Shown: one piece after another, positions 13,332 to 57,622 of the stretch
How positions within the stretch are numbered: the first letter of the stretch is position 1
Layout: each line of letters opens with the position of its first letter
From: a virus
Virus record (IMG/VR): IMGVR_UViG_3300035703_004050
Span: 1-64,000 of that record
DNA: 64,000 bases
Reading direction: 5' to 3' (one strand)
The notes under the pieces: model-generated
The model's database searches: none
Told to the model about the DNA's origin: nothing
The model's input: only the letters and a program-made list of their open reading frames with translations
Program-made: the position numbers and the translations under genes

Positions 13332-14794
13332 AAAAATGTAAACTAGTAATTAAGGATGAGGTAAATGTAAAGTTTGAAAATCTTGACCTTGAAATGCGTA
13401 AGCTATTAAGCAAGAAGTTCAAATATCAAATACCATATGCTAGGCATTTACCAGCAGTGAGACTAGGGCGTTGGGATGGGTGCGTAGCCTTCTTTCAATT
13501 AGGAGGCAGCACCTATCTTAATCTTTTGCCTGAAATATTTCCTATACTAGATCAAAAAGGATGGGAAATTGATTTAGAAGATTTGCGCCAAGAGAAGCCA
13601 GACTTCAACTTTGCAACAGTGACCGAAGATTCGTTTAGTCACATAAGTTGGCCTAAAGGACATCCACAAGCAGGGCAACCAATTGTTTTACGAGACTACC
13701 AAGTTGAAGTAATCAATGGGTTCTTATCTAACCCTGGATGCTTGCAAGAAGTTGCTACAGGCGCAGGCAAAACTATTATGACTGCTGCACTCAGTAGTCG
13801 TGTTGAACCATATGGTCGTAGCATTGTTATTGTTCCAAACAAAAGCTTAGTAACACAAACAGAAGCGGACTACATCAATTTAGGATTAGATGTGGGAGTG
13901 TTTTTTGGTGATAGAAAAGAGTGGAACAAGACACATACTATTTGCACATGGCAAAGTCTCAATAGCTTGTTTAAGAAATCACGCGATGGCGATATTGAAG
14001 ATCTAGCTACATTTGGTATTGAAAAGTTTGTCGATGGCGTAGTTGCAATCATTGTTGACGAAGTGCATATGGCTAAAGCTGATGCACTTAAGACACTTCT
14101 TACTGGCGTAATGTCTAACATACCGCTGCGTTGGGGATTAACTGGAACTGTACCCAAAGAAGATTTTGAGTTTATGTCTATCAAGTGCAGTTTGGGAGAT
14201 GTTGTTAATAGACTTGCTGCTAGCGAACTACAAGATAAAGGAGTACTAGCACAATGTCACGTACAAATCCTACAAACGCAAGAGACACAAGACTATAAGA
14301 ATTATCAAAGCGAAGTTGCATATCTAGTTACTGATTCAAAACGTTTGGATTGGATTGCAGATCAAATAAAGCTAATGCGTAAAACAGGTAACACACTTAT
14401 ATTGGTAGACCGTATTAATTGCGGACAGGAACTTATTTCAAGGATAGATGATGCAGTATTCGTATCTGGTAACACGAAGGCAAGCCAGCGTAAGGAGGAA
14501 TATGACGAGGTTGCTGAAGCTAGCGACAAAGTTATCGTTGCTACTTATGGGGTTGCTGCTGTTGGTATTAATATTCCCCGTATTTTTAATCTTGTTCTTG
14601 TTGAGCCTGGTAAGTCTTTTGTCCGTGTTATCCAATCAATTGGTCGTGGCATACGTAAAGCAGAAGATAAAGACTTTGTACAAATTTGGGACATCACAAG
14701 CAACTGTAAATTCTCAAAGCGACATCTTACCAAAAGAAAAACCTTCTACAATGAAGCAAATTACCCATACACAATACAAAAGGTAAATATTTAA
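13328..14794 (+). CDS. uvsW: UvsW-type ATP-dependent DNA helicase
   Basis: 488 aa, superfamily 2. It shows the N-terminal UvsW domain (RHLPAVRLGRWDGCVAFF), then the Q-like LRDYQVEVINGF, Walker A VATGAGKTIMTAA (about residue 140), DEVH Walker B (about 243), LTGT motif III, and motif VI QSIGRGIRKAE. T4 UvsW drives branch migration and R-loop unwinding and switches replication to the recombination mode. Length is close to the T4 protein. It overlaps the HARP-like gene by 4 nt and the convergent amidinotransferase gene at its 3' end. Confidence 0.95.
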   Translation: MKKCKLVIKDEVNVKFENLDLEMRKLLSKKFKYQIPYARHLPAVRLGRWDGCVAFFQLGGSTYLNLLPEIFPILDQKGWEIDLEDLRQEKPDFNFATVTEDSFSHISWPKGHPQAGQPIVLRDYQVEVINGFLSNPGCLQEVATGAGKTIMTAALSSRVEPYGRSIVIVPNKSLVTQTEADYINLGLDVGVFFGDRKEWNKTHTICTWQSLNSLFKKSRDGDIEDLATFGIEKFVDGVVAIIVDEVHMAKADALKTLLTGVMSNIPLRWGLTGTVPKEDFEFMSIKCSLGDVVNRLAASELQDKGVLAQCHVQILQTQETQDYKNYQSEVAYLVTDSKRLDWIADQIKLMRKTGNTLILVDRINCGQELISRIDDAVFVSGNTKASQRKEEYDEVAEASDKVIVATYGVAAVGINIPRIFNLVLVEPGKSFVRVIQSIGRGIRKAEDKDFVQIWDITSNCKFSKRHLTKRKTFYNEANYPYTIQKVNI

Positions 14795-15999
14795 TCAAAC
14801 CCTAAATCAACTATTTCATTAGTTCTGTTAGGGAAATAATCTTCCATTACCCCTTCTCGATACAAGTCTAGGGTAATACAGTGTAGTCCACCATCCCAAA
14901 AATATCTGTGTCGCCACGGTACGATAATTGGTTCTATTTTGTGCTTCTTGAAAAAAGCAAACGCTGTTTCGTTGTAGTTGTTAACACAAACATGATGCTC
15001 GTCTAGCATCAATACGTTGACATCAAAAACCGATTCTTCACAAAACCCAACCCAATCATTTAACCATGTTTCTACAAATTGTATAAATTCATCGTTATTT
15101 TCTTCACCAGGTACCCACCATTTGCCATTTACTTTATTTTTAATTTTTATAAATCCTTCAATAAGGTCCCATGATTGATTTGGTAAGTAGCAAATATCCC
15201 AATTTGGAAATGTTTTTTCATACTGTTGAATTTCGTAAAGACTTAAAATTACTCCTGGTTTAAGAGTATGAAATGATCCATCATTGTGCCCACCAATATT
15301 TAAGGTATTAAATCTAATATCAGTGTGATTTTTTTTTAAATATTCAATAACTTGATTAGAAATATTTTGTTCTCTATAATCGATATACAAATCTTTTCCT
15401 ACCAAAGTAGTTGAAGGTGGTGATGGTAATGTTAAATTTTTAATTCGATTCTTGTATTCCTCTTTAATTTCTGGTTTAATTTTTTCAAAATAATTTGGTT
15501 TTAGATAATCTTCATAAGTTAACCAATCTTTTCCTGCATGTATGTTAAATTCTTTTTCGCTAATTTTTTTTGATAAATCTGCTGGCAAAGATTGATACAA
15601 ATCAAGATCTTCCTTGTTATAATTTTTAAAAATGTTTATAAATTCGCCGTTTGCGTCACTGCCGTTACAATACAATTTGTTTCCTAACACAAATTGCCAA
15701 TCTCTTGGTTGTAAAGGTGCTCGAGGAATGTTTTTTACTTTTCCCCTGTCGATAAAATTCATTATTGATAAATTTAAATCAATGTCTGGTCTTAATACGT
15801 TACATCCAAAATCTTTTAAAACTTTTTCATAGTACTCTAAATCCTCTAGAGTTTCCTCAGTAATTTTAGTTAATGCTGATCTAATTTTATCATTTTTAAT
15901 GTCATGGTAAAAGCTAACAGGATAGCAATTTCCTAACACAACAGTTTTTAAAGTGTGCCATTTGCACCAAACATTATATTGGTTTTTATCTTTTAGCAT
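14791..15999 (-). CDS. Amidinotransferase family protein (pentein fold), paralogue A
   Basis: 402 aa. Catalytic landmarks are the His motif GGHNDGSFHTLKPGVIL, a conserved acidic DVNVLMLD strand, and the C-terminal WDGGLHCITLDL, where Cys is the nucleophile of amidinotransferases/deiminases (GATM, StrB type). The family moves an amidino group from arginine to an amine. A second copy lies just upstream. Protein identity is very high at both ends while codons differ, so both copies are under selection. Substrate may be a sugar amine or a small amine. Confidence 0.85.
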   Translation of the reverse strand: MLKDKNQYNVWCKWHTLKTVVLGNCYPVSFYHDIKNDKIRSALTKITEETLEDLEYYEKVLKDFGCNVLRPDIDLNLSIMNFIDRGKVKNIPRAPLQPRDWQFVLGNKLYCNGSDANGEFINIFKNYNKEDLDLYQSLPADLSKKISEKEFNIHAGKDWLTYEDYLKPNYFEKIKPEIKEEYKNRIKNLTLPSPPSTTLVGKDLYIDYREQNISNQVIEYLKKNHTDIRFNTLNIGGHNDGSFHTLKPGVILSLYEIQQYEKTFPNWDICYLPNQSWDLIEGFIKIKNKVNGKWWVPGEENNDEFIQFVETWLNDWVGFCEESVFDVNVLMLDEHHVCVNNYNETAFAFFKKHKIEPIIVPWRHRYFWDGGLHCITLDLYREGVMEDYFPNRTNEIVDLGFD

Positions 16000-16026
16000 C
16001 TTAGTTTTCTTAATATAAAATACATT

Positions 16027-17250
16027 TTAAATTTCAGTAATTGAATTAGTTCTATCAGGGAAATAATCTTCCATTACACCTTCTCGATATAATTCAAGAG
16101 TAATGCAATGCAATCCACCATCCCAAAAATATCTATGACGCCAAGGAACAATTATAGGTTCAATTTTGTGTTTCTTAAAGAAAGCAAAAGCAGTTTCATT
16201 GTAGTTGTTAACACAAACATTATATTTGTCTAACATCAAAACATTTACATCAAACACACTTTCTTCACAATACCCTACCCAGTCATTTAACCAAGTTTCT
16301 ACGAAATTAATAAATTGATCGTTATCTTCTTCACCAGGTACCCACCATTTGCCATTTACTTTTTTCTTCATTTTTAAGAAATCTGATACTGCATGAAAAG
16401 ATTGATTTTCCAAATAACATATTTCCCAATTTGGAAATGTTTTTTCATAATTTTTTACTTCTTCAATGCTAATAATTACTCCTGGTTTAAGAGTATGAAA
16501 ACAACCATCGTGATGTCCTTCAATTACTAGTCTATTAATTCTTAAATCTTGACAATATTCTTTGTAAGTTTCGCAGATAAAATTACAAGTTTTATTACTA
16601 CCGGTAGTATCTAAATATAAGTCTCTTCCAACTAATGTTGAGTTTCCAGCATCGTCGTAAGTATTAATCATAAATGATGTAATTTCATCAAGTATATTTT
16701 GTTCAATATTTTCAAAATTGTTGTTGTAATAATTTTCGTAAGTTGGCCAACTTGATCCTTTTAAAATCTCATATTGATTTTTGGTTAACTTAATTACTTT
16801 ATCAGTGATGTCTGGTTTGCGATTTTTAAAATTCTCAAAATTGATAATGTCTTTACTATTATATTGATATAATAATTTTGCAATTTCGCCGTTTGCGTCT
16901 AATCCTTGTAGATACAACTTGTTGCCAATAATAAATTGATAATCTCTAGGTTGTAATGGTGAACGAGGAATTCCTTGTCTAAAGCTATAGTATTCAGTGC
17001 TGTTAACATTAGCAAAATTTAGTATAGATAAGTTTTTATCTACGTGAGGTCTTAGTACAGTGCATCCAAAATCTTTTAAAACTTTTTCGTAGTACTCCAA
17101 ATCTTCTAATGTTTCCTCGGTAATTTTTGTTAATGCCGATCTAATTTTGTCATTTTTAATATCTTTGAAAAAATTTGGAGAATAACTATTTCCTAACACA
17201 ACAGTTTTTAGGGGGTCCCACATATTCCAAACATTATATTGGTTGTTCAT
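16027..17250 (-). CDS. Amidinotransferase family protein (pentein fold), paralogue B
   Basis: 407 aa. It shares KNDKIRSALTKITEETLED and KVNGKWWVPGEE with copy A. The catalytic set is intact: GHHDGCFHTLKPGVI and WDGGLHCITLEL. The middle third (residues about 130-230) diverges strongly and probably sets the acceptor specificity. AAAGGTAAAG precedes the ATG. The gap to copy A is 27 nt, so they form one transcript. In a phage the role is unclear: glycan decoration or arginine-derived metabolite synthesis are both possible. Confidence 0.85.
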   Translation of the reverse strand: MNNQYNVWNMWDPLKTVVLGNSYSPNFFKDIKNDKIRSALTKITEETLEDLEYYEKVLKDFGCTVLRPHVDKNLSILNFANVNSTEYYSFRQGIPRSPLQPRDYQFIIGNKLYLQGLDANGEIAKLLYQYNSKDIINFENFKNRKPDITDKVIKLTKNQYEILKGSSWPTYENYYNNNFENIEQNILDEITSFMINTYDDAGNSTLVGRDLYLDTTGSNKTCNFICETYKEYCQDLRINRLVIEGHHDGCFHTLKPGVIISIEEVKNYEKTFPNWEICYLENQSFHAVSDFLKMKKKVNGKWWVPGEEDNDQFINFVETWLNDWVGYCEESVFDVNVLMLDKYNVCVNNYNETAFAFFKKHKIEPIIVPWRHRYFWDGGLHCITLELYREGVMEDYFPDRTNSITEI

Positions 17251-41886: not shown

Positions 41887-42069
41887 ATGGAAACACATAA
41901 GAGAAGTATAGTTAAATCAATCACATGGCGTGTAATTGCAACTTTAATCGCAGCATATTGGGTAGGGTTTGAAATAGCAATTCTAATGAACATTGTTCAA
42001 ACAATTGCTTATTACATACATGAAAGACTTTGGGTACACATTAATTGGGGACGCCAAACTAATAATTGA
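41887..42069 (+). CDS. DUF2061 small membrane protein
   Basis: 60 aa. ETHKRSIVKSITWRVIATLI is the family signature (R-S-x-x-K-x-I-s-W-R) and two membrane helices follow (residues 15-32 and 37-52). DUF2061 proteins in bacteria are often next to sulfate-assimilation genes and are of unknown function. In the phage it directly precedes the tmRNA promoter. No ribosome-binding site; see the late box just upstream. Confidence 0.85.
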   Translation: METHKRSIVKSITWRVIATLIAAYWVGFEIAILMNIVQTIAYYIHERLWVHINWGRQTNN

Positions 42070-42094
42070 CCTAAAGATGCTTATCGCGTATAAG
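42066..42094 (+). promoter_or_regulatory. Promoter of the permuted tmRNA, TTGACC-17-TATAAG
   Basis: TTGACC at 42066 (its first bases overlap the DUF2061 stop) and TATAAG at 42089. The predicted start near 42101 lies about 63 nt before the CCA end of the acceptor piece, right for a two-piece tmRNA. Confidence 0.7.
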
Positions 42095-42100
42095 TATATT

Positions 42101-42164
42101 TGTAAGCGTTGATAGTGCTTTAAAAACATTTGGGACCGGGGGGCAGTACCCCGCGCCTCCACCA
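42101..42164 (+). ncRNA. ssrA: Permuted tmRNA, acceptor piece (3' half of the tRNA-like domain)
   Basis: The 3' end reads CGCCTCC-A-CCA. The T-arm is CGGGG/CCCCG around loop GGCAGTA, the unusual loop of alphaproteobacterial two-piece tmRNA. CGCCTCC pairs over all 7 bp with GGGGGCG at 42535-42541, and the third pair is G-U, the G3-U70 identity element for alanyl-tRNA synthetase. TTGGGA at 42130 can pair with TCCCAA at 42733 to join the pieces. The 5' end is inferred from the promoter. Confidence 0.9.
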
Positions 42165-42176
42165 TAAGGAAATGGT

Positions 42177-42533
42177 ATGCGTATAAGTGAAATGACATTA
42201 GATGTACCAAACATTTTGTATCATGCCACTTATCGTCCATTGCTTAGTTCAATTAAAAAGAACGGACTAGGTGGGACAGGTAGTGAAGTTAAACGATGGG
42301 ATGATAGTATCCATGGAATCGTTTATCTTGCATTAGATCCAGATGTCGCTGAAAGTTATGCAGAAACAAGTGAAAATGTTCCTGATGAATGGCTAGATGA
42401 AATCGTAGTGTTAAAAATTGATACTACACAATTAGATAAATCTAAGTTTCGTTTAGATAAAAACGTTCAAGATAACACAGGTGACACATTGGAATATAAT
42501 GGAGTAATACCTATCTCAGCAATTTCCTTATGA
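42177..42533 (+). CDS. ADP-ribosyltransferase-fold-like protein encoded inside the tmRNA intervening segment
   Basis: 118 aa. ILYHATYRPLLSSIKKNGLG, GIVYLALDPDVAESYAE and TLEYNGVIPIS have the order H-x-T, then a Tyr in the A-x-x-Y-A strand, then Glu, resembling the H-Y-E layout of ART/KptA-like enzymes. Its AAGGA site starts 2 nt after the tmRNA CCA end, and its TGA stop ends 1 nt before the coding piece begins, so the ORF fills the spacer. Possible roles: NAD-dependent RNA/protein modification or tRNA 2'-phosphate removal. The fold call is by motif only. Confidence 0.8.
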   Translation: MRISEMTLDVPNILYHATYRPLLSSIKKNGLGGTGSEVKRWDDSIHGIVYLALDPDVAESYAETSENVPDEWLDEIVVLKIDTTQLDKSKFRLDKNVQDNTGDTLEYNGVIPISAISL

Positions 42534-42534
42534 T

Positions 42535-42740
42535 GGGGGCGAACTAGGCTCGACCTGTGTATAATAAGGGCAAGGGAGTTTACAGTGAGGCGACTGACTT
42601 TTACAGCGCAATATAATAAATGCAAACGATAACTTCGTTCGTAACGAGCAAATTGCTCAGTCTATCGTAGTTCGCGACCGCGACCTCGTAGCAGCATAAG
42701 CTCAACGGGCCGTTGGGAGCCTTGGAACAGAATCCCAACA
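42535..42740 (+). ncRNA. ssrA: Permuted tmRNA, coding piece with 25-residue tag
   Basis: Begins GGGGGCGAAC and has AGGCTCGACC, like the conserved 5' end of alphaproteobacterial tmRNA coding pieces. The tag reading frame starts with GCA at 42622 and stops at TAA 42697: it begins ANDNF, contains several Arg and Asp, and ends RDLVAA. Typical tags start AND/ADN and end ALAA. GTTGGGA at 42712 and TCCCAAC at 42733 can form a stem or compete for the acceptor piece. The exact 3' end is uncertain by about 5-10 nt. Confidence 0.92.
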
Positions 42741-42770
42741 TTTGACACAGACACACAGAAAGGAAAAACT

Positions 42771-43683: not shown

Positions 43684-43911
43684 ATGCTAGACAAAAATCA
43701 AATGGAACGTTGGCAAAAAGTTAATGCATTTCTTGAACAAGCACTTGATCAAGTTCAAAATGACAAAACTAAAAGCCGCAAAATCAAAAACATTCGTTCA
43801 AAGCTAGCATGGGCTTTGGACCAATACGAAAGTGGTCTTTCAGGTAAAACTGAATTACTACAAAAGCTAACACCTGAAGTAGCAGAAAAGTTTCAAGAAA
43901 TTTTAGGATGA
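43684..43911 (+). CDS. Small helical hypothetical protein
   Basis: 75 aa. MERWQKVNAFLEQALDQVQN and IRSKLAWALDQYESG are two amphipathic helices; AEKFQEIL ends it. No family assigned. Its stop overlaps the TilS start (ATGA), so the two are co-translated. Confidence 0.75.
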   Translation: MLDKNQMERWQKVNAFLEQALDQVQNDKTKSRKIKNIRSKLAWALDQYESGLSGKTELLQKLTPEVAEKFQEILG

Positions 43912-44513
43912 TTAAACTCCTTACATCATTGCCAAAAACACTATACGTCGCTTGTAGCGGCGGTGTAGATTCTATGGCTGCGTTGGACTTTTTGTCACGC
44001 AAACATGATGTAACCGCTGCATACTTTGATCATTATACAGCACATGGCATGGAAGCAAAACACTGGTTGTGGCGTTATTGCCAAAACAAAAACATTCCTT
44101 TTGTTCACAGTGAATTATCTAGATCAAAATTGTCAGGTGAAAGTATTGAAGAGTTTTGGCGTAATCAACGTTATGATTGGTTTGATACACTTCCAGGCAC
44201 TGTCGTTACTGCACATCACTTGGATGATGCTGTTGAAACTTGGGTATGGGCTAGTATGCACGGTCAACCAAAGTTGCCAGAAATTTATCGTAACAATGTA
44301 ATCCGTCCATTCTTAGCAACACCAAAACAAGAATTAATGGATTGGTGCATTAAGAATAACGTACCATGGTTTGATGATACATCAAACACGGATACTAAAT
44401 ATATGCGTAACTATGTTCGACATGTTGCGATGCCTGTTGTCCAAAAGATTAATCCAGGTATCCAAAAGACTATCAAAAAGAAATTGCTTTCTAAATTAGA
44501 TAGTGTATATTAA
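43908..44513 (+). CDS. tilS: tRNA(Ile)-lysidine synthetase, TilS-like
   Basis: 201 aa. The N-type ATP pyrophosphatase P-loop is YVACSGGVDSMAALD (about residues 13-27), followed by YFDHYTAH, VVTAHHLDDAVETWVW and RPFL, then WFDDTSN with TKYMRNYVRH. These are the TilS hallmarks. The enzyme adds lysidine to C34 of tRNA-Ile(CAU). Only the catalytic domain is present; the C-terminal tRNA-binding domains of bacterial TilS are absent. A tRNA with anticodon CAU follows directly. Confidence 0.9.
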   Translation: MIKLLTSLPKTLYVACSGGVDSMAALDFLSRKHDVTAAYFDHYTAHGMEAKHWLWRYCQNKNIPFVHSELSRSKLSGESIEEFWRNQRYDWFDTLPGTVVTAHHLDDAVETWVWASMHGQPKLPEIYRNNVIRPFLATPKQELMDWCIKNNVPWFDDTSNTDTKYMRNYVRHVAMPVVQKINPGIQKTIKKKLLSKLDSVY

Positions 44514-44522
44514 GTGGACAAT

Positions 44523-44599
44523 GCGCTGGTAGCTCAATTGGTCAGAGCAGCGGACTCATAATCCGTTGGTTGGGGGTTCGAGTCCCTCCCGGCGCACCA
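44523..44599 (+). tRNA. tRNA with CAU anticodon, probably tRNA-Ile2 (lysidine substrate)
   Basis: 77 nt with encoded CCA. Acceptor GCGCTGG pairs with CCGGCGC (one U-G), D-arm GCTC...GAGC, anticodon stem GCGGA/TCCGT around loop CTCATAA, T-arm GGGGG/CCCTC with TTCGAGT. The anticodon CAT at 44557-44559 reads AUG as Met or, after lysidine, AUA as Ile. The adjacent TilS gene and a loop resembling bacterial tRNA-Ile2 favour Ile; elongator Met is not excluded. Confidence 0.92.
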
Positions 44600-56665: not shown

Positions 56666-57106
56666 ATGAATACACTTACTAAGTTTGACTTAACCCCATT
56701 TAACCGTGCTACAGTTGGTTTTGATCGCGTATTTGATATACTTGATCGCCAATTTGCTAATTCTGTAAGCACAACTTATCCCCCATACAATATTATTAAG
56801 GAAGCAGAAGACAACTACAAGATTGAAATTGCAGTTGCCGGTTTCCGTGAGGATGAGCTAGACATTACTGTTAAGGATTATGTCCTTACTGTAACTGGGG
56901 AACAAAAGCGTGAAGAGAACGCCGAAGGTCCAACTTACCTTCACAAGGGTATTTCTGCTCGCAGCTTTACACGCACATTTACTTTGGGCGATCATGTTGA
57001 AGTAAAGGGCGCAGTAGTTCAAAACGGACTACTTGTTATTAGCTTAGAGCGTGAAGTTCCAGAAGAAGCAAAACCAAAGAAAATTTCTATCACTTTCCAG
57101 AAGTAA
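56666..57106 (+). CDS. Small heat-shock protein, Hsp20/IbpA-like
   Basis: 146 aa. The alpha-crystallin domain covers residues 33-140: YNIIKEAEDNYKIEIAVAGF, then ELDITVKDYVLTVTGEQKRE, and GISARSFTRTFTLGDHVEVK; the C-terminal IxI-like KISITFQ anchors the oligomer. It holds unfolding proteins for refolding. A good AAAGGAG site precedes the start. Stand-alone gene with its own promoter and 5' hairpin. Confidence 0.93.
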   Translation: MNTLTKFDLTPFNRATVGFDRVFDILDRQFANSVSTTYPPYNIIKEAEDNYKIEIAVAGFREDELDITVKDYVLTVTGEQKREENAEGPTYLHKGISARSFTRTFTLGDHVEVKGAVVQNGLLVISLEREVPEEAKPKKISITFQK

Positions 57107-57313: not shown

Positions 57314-57622
57314 ATGGCTAAGACACAAACAACTACCAAAGTAAAAGTAAAGCCCCGCACGGATATTGAACCACCACGTCAGTTTAAAGTCATTTATCTA
57401 AACGATGAAGTTACTACAATGGACTTTGTTGTCCAAACTCTTATGGAAATCTTTGATCATAACGAAGAATCTGCAATGGACATTACTCAAAAGATCCATG
57501 AAGAAGGCAGTGCTGTTGTTGGCGTTTATTCATTTGAGATTGCTGAACACAAAGGTGTTGAGGTTACTGTAATGGCGCGGGCTAACGGATTTCCTTTACA
57601 GGTGAAAGTTGAGCCAGAATAA
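57314..57622 (+). CDS. clpS: ClpS adaptor protein (N-degron recognition)
   Basis: 102 aa. FKVIYLNDEVTTMDFVVQTL carries the ClpS motif N-D-x-x-T-x-x-x-V. It is followed by ESAMDITQKIHEEGSAVVGV and EVTVMARANGFPLQVKVEPE, matching the ClpS binding core. It hands N-end-rule substrates to ClpAP and can block ssrA-tagged substrates from ClpA. Phage copies are uncommon. Here it accompanies a tmRNA and an Ate-like GNAT. Confidence 0.93.
   Translation: MAKTQTTTKVKVKPRTDIEPPRQFKVIYLNDEVTTMDFVVQTLMEIFDHNEESAMDITQKIHEEGSAVVGVYSFEIAEHKGVEVTVMARANGFPLQVKVEPE

Follow-up and report, generated by a model that had tools for sequence, protein, structure and literature searches.

Why should a complete protein gene lie inside the gene of a transfer-messenger RNA (tmRNA)? 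The question is raised by a locus in a 64,000-nt stretch of viral DNA (IMG/VR record IMGVR_UViG_3300035703_004050, positions 1 to 64,000; this whole stretch is called the window below), in which the two pieces of a permuted tmRNA flank an open reading frame (ORF) of 118 codons. The ORF fills the intervening segment (IVS), i.e. the part of the precursor that would be cut out at maturation. We find that it is a genuine gene and that long IVSs of many other aquatic phages hold small, mutually unrelated genes as well. Probably the IVS is a slot for protein-coding cargo within a primary transcript that serves two successive purposes, as cargo mRNA first and as tmRNA later.

A protein gene within a permuted tmRNA gene

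Searching the window with Rfam models (cmscan, Infernal) gave matches to tmRNA_permuted (RF04321; 42102-42699, 101.6 bits, gathering cut-off 47, E 1.2e-18) and to alpha_tmRNA (42068-42742, 73 bits, cut-off 50, E 5.8e-18), with both pieces in permuted order. The acceptor stem (GGGGGCG paired with CGCCUCC) forms 7 of 7 pairs, G3-U70 among them, CCA occupies 42162-42164, and the coding piece starts with GGGGGCG at G42535; an initial annotation made from the sequence alone had placed all of these exactly to the base. ARAGORN did not report a tmRNA gene in the window. The encoded tag, ANDNFVRNEQIAQSIVVRDRDLVAA, has a hydrophobic C-terminus of the proteolysis type. The gene is of the permuted two-piece type, as annotated, and its RNA is predicted to be processed, charged and active in trans-translation. 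Across phage tmRNAs the tags are intact; LAA, IAA or MAA forms the C-terminus of 82 among the 96 distinct ones. Endings of VNA, ANA, ANG or LAV instead of LAA were seen at L001, L013, L017, L052, L058, L061, L173 and L206.

The nested ORF runs from its own Shine-Dalgarno (SD) sequence, AAGGA, to a UGA that leaves a single base (U) before the coding piece (Table 1), and the annotated gene thus fills the 370-nt IVS. On a 249.6-kb contig (L001) a 65%-identical homologue is also nested in a permuted tmRNA (RF04321, 78.8 bits), so the nested order does recur elsewhere, as had been anticipated; within the compared regions, the two neighbourhoods have no further protein in common. The 118 base differences between the two ORFs are distributed over the codon positions as 32/22/64, so that 64 of them fall on third positions, and the ratio of nonsynonymous to synonymous changes per site (pN/pS) is 0.30, with synonymous sites near saturation (57/76). 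The nested ORF is a genuine gene under purifying selection.

Intervening segments of other phages

We scanned viral contigs in three ways. The pattern CCA-TAAGGA-N5-ATG (scan 1) returned 69 stretches, mostly tmRNA acceptor ends followed by various small ORFs. The other two scans used the acceptor piece alone as query and were thus blind to the content of the IVS; they yielded at least 160 distinct and at least 137 non-redundant phage IVSs. RF04321 confirmed a permuted tmRNA at 16 of 16 further loci tested, plus at least 10 environmental loci. ORFs spanning the IVS were tested against dinucleotide shuffles (counts of spanning ORFs and of cargo families are given among the matches listed). No spanning ORF is found in 55 IVSs shorter than 80 nt (0.72 expected). 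At 80-120 nt there are 9 in 38 (4.25 expected), which is only about twice the chance level, and we therefore do not claim all of these as genes. The proportion rises to 6 of 11 at 120-160 nt (0.93 expected), 13 of 21 at 160-260 nt (0.19 expected) and 11 of 12 at 260 nt or more (0.01 expected); for all IVSs of at least 160 nt it is 24 of 33, versus 0.2 expected. The excess over the shuffles corresponds to about a quarter of the phage tmRNAs in this sample.

Nested ORFs were also found in a scan with the alpha-type acceptor (L391, L362, L417, L379). In a control with 84,980 bacterial genomes, the pattern T-arm-CCA-TAAGGA gave two matches, a standard tmRNA (L306) and a tRNA (L307); this control is only partial, as genes with the alpha-type loop CAGTACCC escape the pattern. 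The cultured phages MD18, RcRudolph, CcrBL9, EliS-L02, QDWS359, X1 and Rb1 have permuted-type tmRNAs with short IVSs, in which no SD-led ORF was seen.

Altogether 70 distinct SD-led nested proteins fall into 47 families, most of them with pN/pS values of 0.13-0.47 (about 0.7 in two small families). Pfam identifies a thioredoxin (L053, E 1.4e-20), a GNAT protein (L144, E 2e-6), a DUF2061 protein (L266, PF09834, E 3.5e-20) and a Cys-rich CxxCxxCC domain (L077) among the cargoes; many others are hydrophobic peptides of 23-41 residues, i.e. tiny membrane proteins. Some cargo families recur in more than one tmRNA backbone, and the cargoes found in a single backbone differ, from which we conclude that cargo and tmRNA recombine. 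At L047, L100, L185, L049 and L069 a long stretch (92 to 358 nt, where measured) separates the end of the first nested ORF from the coding piece, and these IVSs therefore have room for a second ORF.

Shine-Dalgarno sequence and stop codon in a closing helix

Whether or not the IVS is coding, its two ends pair with each other and prolong the acceptor stem, a feature absent from the initial annotation. Of the non-coding IVSs, 92-100% show pairing at IVS positions 3-8, compared to 44-75% with shuffled partners, and several pair types occur at each position; for coding IVSs the figure is 87-100%. In the window, the SD lies in the 5' arm and is paired in the predicted precursor fold (z -4.4), the 3' arm codes for the last residues of the protein, and the stop codon is part of UGAU (Table 1). 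An SD is present in 23 of 30 coding IVSs, but in only 5 of 72 non-coding ones (p 3e-12), and GG at positions 4-5 in 20 of 30 versus 2 of 72 (p 6.5e-12). Among IVSs with G at position 4, the 3' arm is weakened to G.U opposite the SD in 15 of 24 coding and 9 of 30 non-coding cases. The combination of GG and G.U fits selection for a usable SD within the helix and suggests that access to it is tuned.

The boundaries of the cargo follow the same frame. Its start lies at +11 after CCA in 43 of 70 ORFs and at +12 in 15 of 70 (58 of 70 together), a count that is partly built in since one of the three scans (CCA-TAAGGA-N5-ATG) fixed the spacing. The last four bases of the IVS are usually UGAU, in 26 of 30 coding and 50 of 72 non-coding IVSs, and 33 of 70 distinct ORFs stop at this UGA. 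A(-2)U(-1) is the optimal leader dinucleotide for RNase P, and the enzyme is slower when the leader is base-paired to RCCA (PMC9433436); UGAU with its conserved C74.A mismatch therefore reads as an RNase P element, whose UGA the cargo borrows as a stop codon.

Table 1. Features at the tmRNA locus and directly upstream of it (window coordinates)
Feature	Position	Strand	Basis
Acceptor (3') piece with T-arm and CCA end	42068..42164	+	alpha_tmRNA from 42068, RF04321 from 42102; CCA read directly
IVS, 370 nt, predicted to be cut out at maturation	42165..42534	+	Between CCA and G1; insert in RF04321 and alpha_tmRNA
5' arm of closing helix, UAAGGAAAU, stacked on acceptor stem	42165..42173	+	Minimum free energy (MFE) pairing; register covaries across phages
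SD (AAGGA) of nested ORF, within 5' arm	42166..42170	+	Read directly; GG enrichment in coding IVSs
Nested gene, 118-aa protein of predicted ADP-ribosyltransferase fold (KptA/Tpt1-like)	42177..42533	+	ORF (ATG 42177, UGA 42531-42533), pN/pS, family, fold
3' arm of closing helix, AUUUCCUUA, codes for last protein residues	42522..42530	+	MFE fold, covariation
UGAU, ORF stop and putative RNase P leader, facing ACCA with conserved C74.A mismatch	42531..42534	+	Conservation, pairing table
Coding (5') piece	42535..42742	+	RF04321 end 42699, alpha_tmRNA end 42742
Tag reading frame, ANDNFVRNEQIAQSIVVRDRDLVAA and stop	42622..42699	+	Tag translation
DUF2061 membrane-protein gene directly upstream of tmRNA	41887..42069	+	PF09834, E 5.2e-9; family also nested in L266

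A proposed double use of one transcript

If the transcript serves twice, ribosomes would load at AAGGA before the helix has closed, mostly on RNA still being transcribed, and a ribosome at the UGA would cover the start of the coding piece and delay formation of the acceptor stem. Closure of the helix would then mask the SD, end cargo translation and commit the RNA to maturation, in which host RNase P, with help from A(-2)U(-1) in the leader, would act together with a nuclease at the 3' end to excise the IVS and give the two-piece tmRNA. The cargo-mRNA and tmRNA states would thus be mutually exclusive on one transcript. That mRNA use and tmRNA maturation are in conflict or linked had been proposed initially; a helix holding the SD now provides a structural reason for this, and the switch itself we infer.

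Some points weigh against such a switch. The closing helix is present in non-coding IVSs as well, which marks it as first of all an element of RNA processing; that it also masks the SD could be incidental and not a means of regulation. In four IVSs (L085, L144, L181, L127) the motif ATAAATA, which resembles T4 late promoters, stands just upstream of the nested ATG and suggests separate transcription there. Moreover, the case, switch step included, is built from sequences and predicted folds. As a general feature of the slot we rejected ATAAATA: it is absent from the IVS of the window and precedes 3 of 21 M[RK]xxE ORFs versus 85 of 2302 others.

The four promoter-like motifs also speak for an alternative, in which the IVS is just spare transcribed space that genes enter by recombination at its conserved ends, their expression being uncoupled from the tmRNA. 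The miscellaneous functions of the cargoes and their movement among tmRNA backbones would be expected from such neutral compaction. It accounts less well for an SD and start codon at a fixed offset (given that this count is partly built in), for the frequent use of the leader UGA as stop, and for the G.U weakening opposite the SD with the tuned access that it suggests, and we consider it rather unlikely, though the strongest of the alternatives.

The reading as a cargo slot in a transcript used twice can be taken further. In L027, L075, L007 and L312 (Melnitz) the nested frame stays open past the RNase P site and runs into the tmRNA; maturation would therefore leave a non-stop mRNA. Such a message would be a substrate for tmRNA, which could link cargo expression and rescue capacity by feedback. 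That phages harbour a widespread class of bifunctional RNAs of this kind, being cargo mRNA until the helix folds and tmRNA thereafter, is a tentative extension which we regard as rather unlikely.

The product of the nested gene

The AlphaFold2 model of the 118-aa protein has a mean predicted local distance difference test (pLDDT) score of 80.6, and its best Foldseek matches are KptA/Tpt1 (E 1.5e-4, probability 1.00), to whose ADP-ribosyltransferase (ART)-fold lobe it corresponds. The ART-like product named in the initial annotation is thereby supported. With these RNA 2'-phosphotransferases it shares the fold, an LYH-T and a GL motif; it differs in its size (118 versus ~180 aa), in the absence of the N-terminal lobe and in its PF01885 score of 12.9 bits (cut-off 26), obtained over a match of 25 residues only. 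Because the score is below the cut-off and the lobe is missing, we name the modelled product an ART-fold protein and not KptA. Members of its family give weak Pfam matches to PTS_2-RNA, RES and Exotox-A_cataly. The family comprises 18 loci (L317-L334, of which L319 is L001), and apart from L001 these have no tmRNA, the ART mostly being a domain within a long protein. Across L317-L334 the domain is repeatedly part of long phage proteins that have several domains and begin with MRAxEF; their GVAEG and NFADG linkers between domains resemble prohead-protease sites.

The long nested proteins often start with M-[RK]-I-x-E. In the ART of the window the start is MRISE, and IKE and LTE sites look like T4 sites (a resemblance only). 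Internal head proteins of T4 have short N-terminal targeting sequences that are removed by the prohead protease, and the T4 ADP-ribosyltransferase Alt is cut at ITE-6 (PMC5694885). Given this likeness of the N-terminus, packaging of the ART in the virion, as for Alt, is at most a reasonable guess. Both proteins belong to the ART activity class and have a short N-terminus with an I-x-E site; the window protein is far smaller, and the likeness is drawn from the N-terminal motif, not from a sequence relationship.

With a fold closest to that of an RNA enzyme, the ART might act on tmRNA, tRNA or ribosomes, and nesting might tie an RNA-targeting enzyme to its own maturation. We deem this improbable and have lowered its rank, since dozens of other, unrelated cargoes occupy the slot and the ART relatives lie within large proteins away from any tmRNA; the missing KptA lobe and the Pfam score also argue against it. 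No support was found for the identity of the enzyme as the reason for the nesting, for a translation target as raised in the initial annotation, or for toxicity controlled by processing.

Genes of another kind are known from tmRNA genes, which are established insertion targets: a survey describes homing endonucleases in T-loop group I introns of tmRNA, in 36 of 883 intron-form genes (PMC11915505). In both cases a protein gene lies within a tmRNA gene, and the cargo could likewise be selfish or mobile, with the tmRNA as its homing target. The tmRNA gene of the window, however, has no intron or splicing, its cargo is no endonuclease, and the site is the permutation junction instead of the T-loop; with no nuclease in Pfam scans of the cargoes tested, and with boundaries that match an RNA helix, homing is very improbable. 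Finally, chance alone does produce some spanning ORFs with fewer than 40 codons (9 versus 4.25 expected in IVSs of 80-120 nt, among the matches listed), but an artefact of assembly, or a frame left open by chance in a long spacer that codes for nothing, was rejected as practically negligible here because of the 118 codons, the same-place homologue in L001 and conserved family, the pN/pS of 0.30, the shuffle counts and the independent contigs with the same architecture.

Other genes in the window

The window also carries genes for ClpS (57314-57622, PF02617, E 5.7e-29) and Hsp20 (56666-57106, E 6e-22). ClpS steers ClpA away from SsrA-tagged substrates, and the presence of a tmRNA plus ClpS within one phage is suggestive. 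A gene for a TilS-like PP-loop protein (43908-44513) is followed 9 bases on by a tRNA with a CAU anticodon (44523-44599, Met according to ARAGORN), which may be tRNA-Ile2 given the adjoining TilS. On the minus strand, 14791-17250 encodes two adjacent paralogous proteins of 402 and 407 aa, the first without a Pfam match below 1e-3.

Relation to known tmRNAs and significance

The tmRNA of the window agrees with known permuted two-piece tmRNAs in the order of acceptor piece, IVS and coding piece, in the seven-pair acceptor stem, in the tag frame and in Rfam scores above gathering; it differs in that its IVS is occupied by a protein gene, for which SD and stop codon are present within the segment. 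A survey of 97,179 tmRNA sequences (79 from phages) mentions one IVS that contains a tRNA-Ala and a second that contains a repeat; its accessible part makes no mention of a protein gene in a permuted IVS (PMC11915505). A related case from a cultured phage is the ssrA of the marine Methylophilales phage Melnitz (MZ577097), likewise permuted, in whose IVS a frame of 41 codons with an SD-like GGAG precedes the coding piece; the locus is recorded only as SsrA, and the paper on this phage deals with a glutamine riboswitch and not with any nested gene (PMC9004378). No earlier description of a protein gene in a permuted tmRNA IVS was found in the literature searched (preprints and subscription papers lay outside it). 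Permuted tmRNA itself is known; the nested-gene arrangement is apparently undescribed.

One of the best-studied bacterial RNAs thereby gains a class of overlapping information, in that the discarded segment of a ribosome-rescue RNA gene is itself a gene, and the arrangement accounts for the long IVSs in phages. It also shows why ARAGORN overlooked the gene in the window; nested genes may escape annotation, and the survey supplies a list of hidden small phage proteins. That translation of the RNA competes with its conversion to a stable, mature form is a testable proposal, and the fixed boundaries of the segment suggest a natural slot for the exchange of gene cassettes.
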